Origin: Fibrobacter sp.
GTDB lineage: Bacteria > Fibrobacterota > Fibrobacteria > Fibrobacterales > Fibrobacteraceae
Reading direction: 5' to 3'
NCBI GenBank assembly: GCA_017412605.1
Contig: JAFPWY010000008.1
Coordinates: 1 to 64,000 of the forward strand
DNA length: 64,000 nt
Below, one piece after another: positions 46,058-48,175 of the stretch. Made by a program: the position numbers and the translations under genes. The stretch's first letter is position 1, and each line of letters opens with the position of its first letter. The notes beneath the pieces are model-generated. The model was not told the origin of the DNA. It worked only from the letters and a program-made list of their open reading frames with translations, and did no database searches.

Positions 46058-48175
46058 ATGAGTGACCAGAAAGAAATTGATTTTTCCCGTTATTTTGAAC
46101 TGAAGAAGCAACTTGAAGAAGCGAGCCGCCTATATTACAAGGACGGCTTTTCGCCGATGAGCGACCAGGACTTTGACTTCGGGCTCAAAGAACTTGAAAA
46201 ACTGGAAAAAGCCTATCCGGAATTGCGCGGGAAGGCCACACTCACACAGCAGGTCGGCAGCGACCTCACGAACGATTTCGCCAAAGTGGCCCATGCCGTG
46301 CCGATGCTCAGCATCGCGAACGTGTACAGCGCCGAAGAAATGGCTGAATTTGTACGGGCTGCGGAGGACGGAATAGAATCTATCGCCCCAGCGGGGCTCC
46401 AGAATGACGTGCCTCGGGCTTCGGGCCTCGAGCCTCATACCTGGATCTGCGAGCGCAAGATTGACGGCGTGAGCCTTGCCGTCATCTACGAAAACGGTCG
46501 TCTGAAACAGGCCGTCACACGTGGCGACGGTGTTCAAGGCGACGAGGTTACCTTGAACGCACTCACCATCGCGGACATTCCCGAAACTTTGGATGCAAAG
46601 AAATTGAAAATCGATCCCGGCGAAATCCCGCAGGGCACATTCGAGGTTCGTGGCGAAGTCTACATGGAACGAGATGCCTTTGAACGCCTAAACGAGCGGT
46701 TCATTTTAGAGGGCAAGAAGATTTTCCAGAACCCGCGCAATACAGTTTCGGGTTCACTCAAGCTCAAGAGCGTGGCCGAATGCAAGACTCGCCCGATGCG
46801 CTTCTTCGCCTACCACATTCCGCAGAGCAACAACAGGACGCACGAAGAAAACCTGCTGCAGCTGAAGAAACTCGGATTCCATACAAATGAATACTGGAAA
46901 GCCGACACCGTCGACGAAATCATGAAGATTTCGGAGCAGATTGGCGCAAGCCGCGACAACCTCCCCTTCGACATTGACGGCATGGTCGTCAAGCTGAACG
47001 ATTTGCAGATGCAGCGCGAGCTCGGTTCCACGAGCAAGAGCCCTCGCTGGGCCATCGCCTACAAGTTCAAGGCAGAGCGAGCCTATACCCCGCTCCTCTC
47101 CGTAGAATTCCAGGTCGGCCGCACCGGTGCGGTCACGCCGGTGGCGAACCTCGCACCCGTGCGCCTCGCGGGCACCACGGTCAAGCGCGCCACCCTCCAC
47201 AACTTCGACGAAGTCGCCCGACTGGACCTTCACTTCGGCGACACCGTCGGCGTCGAGAAGGGCGGCGAAATCATCCCGAAAATCACCGACGTCAAGAAAG
47301 AACTCCGCCCGGCCGGGGCACTCCCCGTGACCGCCCCCGACAAATGCCCTGTCTGCGGGGAACCGCTCACACATGTGGACGGCGAAGTGATTCTCCGCTG
47401 CGAAAACATGCACTGTGCGGCGCAGGTGCAATGCCTATTCGAACATTTTGTGAGCCGCGAGGCCATGAACATCGAGAACCTCGGCCCCGCCCTCATCGCA
47501 AGCCTGATTGCCACAGGCAAAATCAAGCGCATTCCGGACCTTTACCGCCTCACGATCGAGGATCTCGAATCGCAGGAACGCATGGCCAAGAAGAGCGCGA
47601 AGAACGTCTTCGACGCCATCGCTGCATCGAAGGAACGTAGCCTCGAGAACCTGCTGCACGGCCTCGGCATCCGCTTCGTAGGCCGCACCAGCGCCCGAAA
47701 CCTCGCGAAGCACTTCCGTACGCTCGAGGCCATCCGCACCGCGACAGTCGAAGATTTGCAGAACGTGAACGACGTCGGCGAACGCATCGGGAAATCCGTT
47801 TACGAATTCTTCCACACGCCGCTCTACACGAACGAAATTGACGAGCTCGTGGCCCTCGGGCTGCCCACCGAATTCAAGGGAGTCGTGAAGACGCTATTCC
47901 AGGGGCAGACCGCGGTTATCACCGGGACGCTCCCGAACATGGACCGCGATGAGGCGCGCAAGCTCATCGAAGAGAACGGCGGCAAGGTCAGCGGTTCCGT
48001 AAGCAAGAAGACGAGCTGGGTGCTCGCAGGCGAAGCTGCCGGAAGCAAGCTCACCAAGGCGAACGAACTCGGCATTCCCGTGCACGACGAGGCCTGGCTT
48101 TTAGAGCAAATCAACAATACAAATACAGAAAGGCCCGCCGCAAGCGGCGAGCCCGAGCAAACCAGCCTATTCTAG
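46058..48175 (+). CDS. ligA: NAD-dependent DNA ligase
   Basis: This seals nicks in replication and repair using NAD. The adenylation domain has the active lysine in [12 protein letters not shown]; an OB fold follows ([15 protein letters not shown]), then the zinc finger with CPVCG...CENMHC, helix-hairpin-helix repeats and a BRCT domain ending LLEQI. Length 705 exceeds the usual 670 or so. The surplus includes residues about 104-127, between the Ia helical region and the active lysine, encoded by repeat words (gcctcgagcctcat) seen between genes elsewhere. No ribosome site is visible before the ATG. Confidence 0.95.
46371..46442 (+). repeat. Repeat-derived insertion inside ligA
   Basis: CCCCAGCGGGG, CTCCAGAATGACGTGCCTCG and GGCCTCGAGCCTCATACC run in frame for about 24 codons. 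GCCTCGAGCCTCAT also occurs in the gaps near 20480 and 36215. The insertion keeps the ligase frame open. Confidence 0.75.

Follow-up and report, generated by a model that had tools for sequence, protein, structure and literature searches.

Can a stretch of non-coding repeat become part of a conserved DNA-joining enzyme without breaking it? The question is raised by a DNA ligase gene in Fibrobacter sp., found within positions 1 to 64,000 of the forward strand of contig JAFPWY010000008.1 (assembly GCA_017412605.1), the whole of which is referred to here as the window. The original prediction, made from the letters of the window, held that this gene carries a repeat-derived, in-frame insertion just ahead of the catalytic KIDG motif. 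The encoded NAD-dependent ligase (LigA) matches curated models above cut-off and over their full length (NF005932, 750.7 bits with a cut-off of 369; TIGR00575, 704.9 bits with a cut-off of 444.45) and displays the adenylation, OB, zinc finger, HhH and BRCT domain set. It is the sole match in the window's genome (G000) at E ≤ 0.001 and is presumably essential there. Residues K134, D136 and G137 are invariant in the 21 LigA proteins compared. The relevant features are:

46058..48175, + strand: ligA, NAD-dependent DNA ligase, 705 amino acids
46373..46441, + strand: the whole variable LigA loop, 23 codons, between helix 92-109 and strand 129-135
46376..46408, + strand: folding repeat pal1, 33 nt, GAATCTATCG-CCCCAGCGGGG-CTCCAGAATGAC
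46413..46440, + strand: four degenerate 7-bp units of heptamer family A (CTCGGGC TTCGGGC CTCGAGC CTCATAC), in the stop-free orientation
46457..46468, + strand: the catalytic motif K134-I-D-G, intact

The segment is confirmed as a mosaic of one 33-nt folding repeat and four 7-bp units, arranged in that order ahead of K134-I-D-G, and the central claim of the original prediction is thereby borne out. The details needed revision. The repeats do lie in the predicted interval (46371-46442) but the repeat-derived part is narrower, at 46376-46440, and in place of some 24 extra codons the net gain is roughly 17 residues: the stretch from MLS to KIDG has 51 here and 34 in the same-family outgroups that were read, and the match to PF01653 takes up 269 residues for 252 profile positions. 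What the segment shares with other places is a degenerate 7-bp unit and not, as had been supposed, a set of fixed words: the exact 14-mer GCCTCGAGCCTCAT occurs just twice in the 3.53-Mb genome. Nor is a single repeat responsible: several families participate, and the palindromic half is seldom found elsewhere in this genome. The ligA copy of pal1, which in reverse complement reads GTCATTCTGGAG-CCCC GCT GGGG-CGATAGATTC with CCCC and GGGG as a putative stem, has one mismatch to the pattern GTCATYCTGGAG~CGATRGRATC; besides it the genome holds one strict match, and in 280 kb of the same genome no other near copy was found, the other loose match having four mismatches.

Taken alone, the window provides modest heptamer evidence that is near chance, whereas genus-wide, in the comparison of loops with cores given below, it is far beyond chance. 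Tandem pairs of the family A unit (CTCRNNC) form two runs on the + strand of the window, where 0.65 are expected, and none on the - strand, where 0.3 are expected. The best match of the insert elsewhere in its own genome is 18 nt long (E 0.019), and its single-sequence fold is no better than that of shuffled sequences (z 0.41 and -0.85), whilst a copy of the consensus type folds better (z -2.45). Across the genus, runs of three family A units occur in 49 of 80 genomes, with a few control matches. For family B (GACGARN), such runs occur in 74 of the 167 phylum genomes, and only five of these 74 lie outside the genus (G084, G098, G103, G144 and G150). The broader pattern GTCATYCTGRRS~CGAWRGRATC, which takes in both pal1 and a related repeat, occurs in 74 of the 80 genus genomes, with no matches to a reversed control. 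Among the leading matches from eight genomes, almost all of them of the GGAG type, the inner stem varies but stays mostly complementary, and a change in the outer T/C is usually accompanied by one in the outer A/G. One genome from another genus of the same family, G150, is the sole genome outside the genus with many family B matches (66 pattern matches), yet its LigA loop is 34 residues long.

To place the insert in a wider context, we measured the loop as the number of residues from MLS to KIDG. Searching 80 genus genomes gave matches in 77, from which 70 loci were read and 69 yielded a loop (L084 did not); partial or poor LigA matches in G023, G024, G050, G051, G058, G062 and G063 were left out. 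The loop ranges from 36 to 103 residues in these 69 genes, with 51 in the window. Amongst 22 same-family genomes searched outside the genus, 20 could be read (G135 gave no match and G149 was cut), and in all 20 the loop is exactly 34 residues long; the same value is seen in F. intestinalis, with 41 in two sister-family genomes and 35-38 in four same-class genomes. With the same-family outgroups constant at 34 and the genus loops spanning 36-103, the comparison shows a site of fixed length outside the genus that later became hypervariable inside it. A segment shared by all Fibrobacter LigA proteins and differing merely in its codons would have spoken against the insertion; instead both length and content differ across the 69 genes, and the segment is absent from the 20 same-family relatives read outside the genus.

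Among 24 pairs of loci whose LigA cores are 94-97% identical, 17 differ in loop length and seven do not, and in 12 the loops are less than 60% alike. On a tree of LigA cores, six repeat families require 9, 10, 2, 5, 12 and 7 changes (at least 45 in total) and loop length requires 52, on the understanding that this is a tree of one gene, that gain and loss look the same on it and that recombination inflates the counts. Exactly three heptamers (21 nt) separate the loops of G020 and G059, and that of G012 has a further 51 nt at the very place where these two differ. No insertion event was observed among the loci compared.

The repeat content of the loops was scored with fixed patterns for six families, four of folding repeats and two of heptamers. 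At least one family is present in 44 of 69 LigA loops (5,751 nt) and in none of 69 neighbouring 1,500-nt core stretches (103,500 nt); for loops of 20 codons or more the figure is 41 of 52. Exact 20-mers common to a 0.45-Mb pool of other genus DNA are found in 19 of 69 loops and in no core, and with a pool confined to gaps between genes, shared 14-mers cover 12.5% of the loops against 0.1% of the cores. Shorter words give little contrast over the whole pool, as coding composition alone supplies the cores with them: at k = 11-12 the loops are no richer in shared words than the cores, and at k = 13 just 12 of 69 loops exceed their own best core window.

A second conserved protein tells the same story. 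RsmG was searched for in 41 genomes, of which 40 matched, giving 30 loci (L247-L276) and 29 usable loops (L261 was cut). Before the WADMGAGAG motif lies a hypervariable, repeat-built loop of 12-86 codons, with repeat families in 20 of 29 cases; the LigA loops, for their part, span 8-75 codons of mixed repeat families. Stretches of 15 nt or more common to RsmG and LigA loops are seen in 18 of the 29 RsmG loops, the longest being 44 nt, against none in the control, where the longest is 11 nt. At both the ligA and the rsmG site, nearly empty, filled and nested states are seen among dozens of genomes.

The inserts remain open to translation. There are no stops in 1,917 codons of the 69 LigA loops, where 95 would be expected at the rate seen in gaps, and none in 1,024 codons of the 29 RsmG loops, where about 51 would be expected, although the absence of stops is partly built in, the loops having been gathered as open frames. 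Independent of this collection effect is the orientation of family A. Units of the CTCATAC type become stops when read on the opposite strand, and family A pairs are found in open orientation in 16 LigA loops and reversed in none, whilst family B, which is open in both orientations, is found forward in six and reversed in three. Many of the loops share ancestry, however, and neither the frame nor the orientation counts are independent observations.

Does the process reach other genes? Within the window the repeats were located as follows:

36239..38677, + strand: UvrA-like ORF, 812 amino acids, the second window gene with in-frame repeats
37682..37772, + strand: 13 family B units (GACGAAC/GACGAAA/GACGAGA) inside the UvrA-like ORF
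36192..36225, + strand: short array of CTC-type units in the gap before the UvrA-like ORF
20460..20541, + strand: heptamer array region of CTC-type units in a gap between ORFs
26533..26648, + strand: heptamer array region between ORFs, built of CTC-type units that run both ways
52538..52672, + strand: heptamer array region between ORFs, again of CTC-type units running both ways

The UvrA-like gene, already named as a second case in the original prediction, does indeed carry an in-frame array, with a higher-order period of 21 nt (95% matches). Sites near residues 158, 489 and 529 of the protein vary among relatives. Many genus-wide matches to it break near residues 160, 285-320 and 485-530, and it therefore seems, on alignment evidence, to have several insertion-prone sites. 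A survey of the window found relatives at 45% identity or more in one of four genomes for 25 of 40 ORFs; repeat-type indels were seen in ligA and the UvrA-like gene only, the others being low-complexity, short or alignment breaks, in a survey that used naive ORFs, so that several matches were in a broken or doubtful frame. At 48181-48351, the ORF at 48177-50291 (- strand) ends 3' in a tandem repeat of 18 bp and 36 bp, which encodes a PATDS-type linker and is of a different kind from the heptamers and folding repeats.

In the whole genome, merging pattern matches gave 47 family B and 15 family A arrays, of which 59 of 62 were examined (44 of 47 and 15 of 15, respectively). Excluding arrays near ORF starts (L211, L216), 17 of the 59 lie inside Pfam-bearing ORFs, away from the ends. 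The ORFs encode a siroheme-synthase-like protein, a CobA/HemD-like fusion, an RluD-type pseudouridine synthase, a POTRA protein, an HrpB-like protein, SecA (in the C-terminal linker), RsmG, a protein with peptidase-MA-like and PD40 matches, HrpA (two arrays), an SNF2 helicase, UvrB, an ABC ATPase, a LarC-type nickel insertion protein, ZnuA, a NUDIX protein and the window's UvrA-like protein. NCBIfam cut-offs are passed by UvrB, SecA and HrpA and not by HrpB, the UvrA-like protein or RsmG (97.1 against 99.5 bits), the last of which passes the Pfam cut-off. DNA- and RNA-handling enzymes appear to be rich in inserts. The proposal that the repeats also hit coding DNA thus holds for 16 further Pfam-bearing genes besides ligA in this genome, and was too modest, given a 96-nt element (below) that sits in frame in four further gene families of relatives. 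Between genes in the same genome (L207-L210), two heptamer arrays may face each other in inverted orientation across 40-80 nt, next to small hairpins whose stem changes (AACG-stem-TACAGAC), and whole elements of about 100-140 nt could fold back; a pattern for complete two-armed family B elements returned just eight candidates.

The 96-nt structured element is carried by the LigA loop of G075 (L309) and is absent from the window, including the window's LigA. Against its own genome this loop gives at least 41 further matches at E ≤ 0.01 (40 of 140 candidates scored), of which eight extend over at least 75 nt and the best over 101 nt at 93%; against G069 there are at least 42, seventeen of 75 nt or more and the best 119 nt at 91%. 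These totals include short palindrome matches. With the same query, the window's genome gives six weak matches, none over the length of the element. Twelve copies were aligned over 100 columns, leaving out longer, variant or cut copies (L325, L327, L328, L331, L333 and second copies in L319 and L324). Their consensus fold comprises 28 pairs, with 97.6% of cells pairing across the 12 copies, and 14 of the 28 pairs have changed on both sides; none of 500 shuffles reaches this level, and slid controls show 0-3 such pairs. Deriving the fold from the very alignment on which it was scored works in its favour, but the slid controls are far off. The ends are alike among copies (GACGAC...AAAGACGA, also given as GACGACAA...AAAGACGA). 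Two longer variants (L327, L328) have an extended third hairpin. A search of Rfam 15 found only tRNAs at 11 loci, and seven element loci gave just one sub-threshold match, to another family, at E 0.21. The element (L309, L310 and L320-L334, in G075 and G069) may represent a structured RNA, or else a mobile element of the single-strand kind.

Copies of the element lie both between genes and in frame inside ORFs: in LigA (L309), a GluQRS-like protein (L320), an FeoB-like protein (L322), an RlmL-like protein in two genomes (L323, L324) and a UvrB-like protein (L330). Apart from LigA these ORFs have good family scores that do not reach the curated NCBIfam thresholds; some are truncated at the edge of the sequence analysed. 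Two forward frames of the element are in use, and the ORF at L334 reads it in a reverse frame. In UvrB, the position following GIRPMEPLQPS holds the 96-nt element in G069 (L330) and a heptamer array in the window's genome (L223), so that the UvrB linker is one landing place for different repeats. This site is the linker before the UVR motif, and the L330 element adjoins apparent translated folding repeats.

The position of the LigA loop on the enzyme was examined in an AlphaFold2 model of the window's protein (21 sequences, mean pLDDT 75, pTM 0.50), which aligns with structure 2owo over 498 residues (Z 30.8, rmsd 6.6). The model places the insert between helix 92-109 and strand 129-135, the latter bearing the catalytic lysine, and residues 111-123 have pLDDT values below 50. 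As modelled, the loop is probably a disordered, tolerated and near-neutral surface segment that adjoins the active site without entering it, leaving ligase activity intact.

We regard it as very likely that the LigA segment is an in-frame, repeat-derived insertion and that several short-repeat families have spread through the genome into genes and gaps alike. Against this stands the notion of an ordinary fast-drifting loop, changing through codon-level indels and substitutions without any dispersed repeats. A loop is present at this site in LigA proteins outside the genus as well, and 25 of the 69 loops contain no recognised repeat family, including the short ones of G008, G071 and G056, for which drift is possible. 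For most long loops it is contradicted by the repeats themselves (44 of 69 loops, none of 69 cores), by 20-mers common to other genus DNA and 44 nt common to an RsmG loop, by an element with many copies in its own genome and by the constant length in the 20 outgroups read, making drift as a general account improbable. It is less credible still that the inserts are missing from the protein through ribosome bypass or RNA splicing. Short folding inserts in coding DNA do resemble mitochondrial byp elements, but an untranslated insert requires neither an open frame nor an orientation bias, and here the frame is kept without a stop in either the LigA or the RsmG codons, while those arrays in LigA loops that are prone to stops are always in the open orientation. 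An assembly artefact is the least believable possibility of all: nearly all the named relatives are metagenome-assembled genomes, but inserts are present in G042, G045, G046, G005 and G001, with reported completeness of 99-100% in about 9-20 contigs, and they are in frame, with variants common to related genomes.

Two further proposals concern what the repeats are. Tandem 7-bp units in UvrA-like, UvrB, HrpA, HrpB and SNF2 genes, where a change of one unit shifts the frame, could be contingency loci, kept because slippage toggles DNA-repair genes. This too we find improbable, as the arrays are degenerate, the 21-nt period of the 13-unit array points to changes that keep the frame, LigA has no second match in its genome and is presumably essential, and the UvrB site holds a non-tandem element in another species. 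Alternatively, the folding repeats might be non-autonomous MITE- or REP-type elements moved by one transposase, with transposition alone explaining the inserts. The dispersed, structured, many-copy elements with similar GACGAC...AAAGACGA ends accord with this, as do inverted heptamer arms with hairpins and the outer array ends in the window's genome, about two-thirds of which by eye read TAGACGA. Y1_Tnp (PF01797), the transposase family searched for, nevertheless has no match in that genome and is present in 7 of 21 genus genomes searched, no target-site duplication is apparent by eye in the element copies inspected, and tandem heptamers require slippage as well, so that transposition as the whole explanation is rather doubtful. 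With no Y1 match in the window's genome and no target duplications by eye, another transposase and template switching are both possible; a RAYT enzyme was considered as the driver and is unsupported, there being no Y1_Tnp match in that genome.

Returning to insertion by dispersed repeats, we infer that repeats are copied or moved into new places. Folding elements may arrive by duplicative insertion, either through transposition or through template switching at hairpins, and mosaics may form where folding repeats meet. Tandem heptamer arrays could then lengthen and shorten via slippage, with steps of 21 nt (three 7-bp units) preserving the frame, and selection would retain in-frame, stop-free variants in tolerant loops. 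A bolder version, which we put forward tentatively and would not yet bet on, is that these are an undescribed class of mobile structured repeats, framed by GACGA heptamers, open in several frames and adapted to life within genes, that replicate as folded single strands, prefer flexible loops in enzymes that handle DNA and RNA and continually feed essential genes with new protein segments.

How do these repeats compare with known systems? The closest parallel is with the Rickettsia palindromic elements (RPEs), reportedly described by Ogata and colleagues in 2000. RPEs are about 150 bp long and fall into ten families, three of which are inserted in genes and able to change the product, and each encodes a conserved peptide (PMC10969869; see also PMC2635572). 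The likeness is considerable: short repeats dispersed outside genes and lying in frame inside unrelated genes, adding protein segments whilst leaving the gene usable, and elements that are palindromic or structured (the covarying 96-nt element and the pal1 hairpin with its variable stem). Rickettsia, however, belongs to another phylum, and Fibrobacter uses several unrelated families (7-bp arrays, hairpins of about 30 nt and the 96-nt element) that form mosaics at one site and are hypervariable between species. Nor do the Fibrobacter repeats yield a single conserved peptide from an element of about 150 bp, the 96-nt element being read in at least two frames. By analogy, the Fibrobacter repeats would be RPE-like in mechanism yet, since size and single-peptide coding do not fit, a separate system by membership.

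Other known repeats are similar in part. REP sequences, which are associated with RAYT (Y1) transposases, are likewise short palindromes present in many copies between genes, but many Fibrobacter copies are inside genes and the window's genome has no Y1_Tnp match. Cyanobacterial STRR sequences are heptanucleotide repeats. Heptanucleotide repeats (TAACTGA) are also reported for Beggiatoaceae (PMC4679880). Both resemble the Fibrobacter arrays in having many copies of tandem 7-bp units, although the Fibrobacter sequences differ, their units are degenerate and they have in-frame copies in conserved genes. The neisserial dRS3/NIME sequences are intergenic mosaics of short palindromes with a variable inner part, an arrangement much like that seen between Fibrobacter genes, but the Fibrobacter mosaics build protein segments as well. 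In the open-licence papers searched, no description was found either of such repeat inserts in Fibrobacter or of the repeat strings themselves.

Repeated in-frame landings in conserved genes suggest a natural process that continually adds segments to Fibrobacter proteins. In-frame repeat insertion in conserved genes is best known from Rickettsia (PMC10969869); here it is seen in an unrelated phylum and with several repeat families. This makes it testable how, and how often, new protein segments arise from non-coding DNA and which selection filters act upon them. LigA is well studied, with many structures available, and so the effect of each natural insert should be directly measurable.
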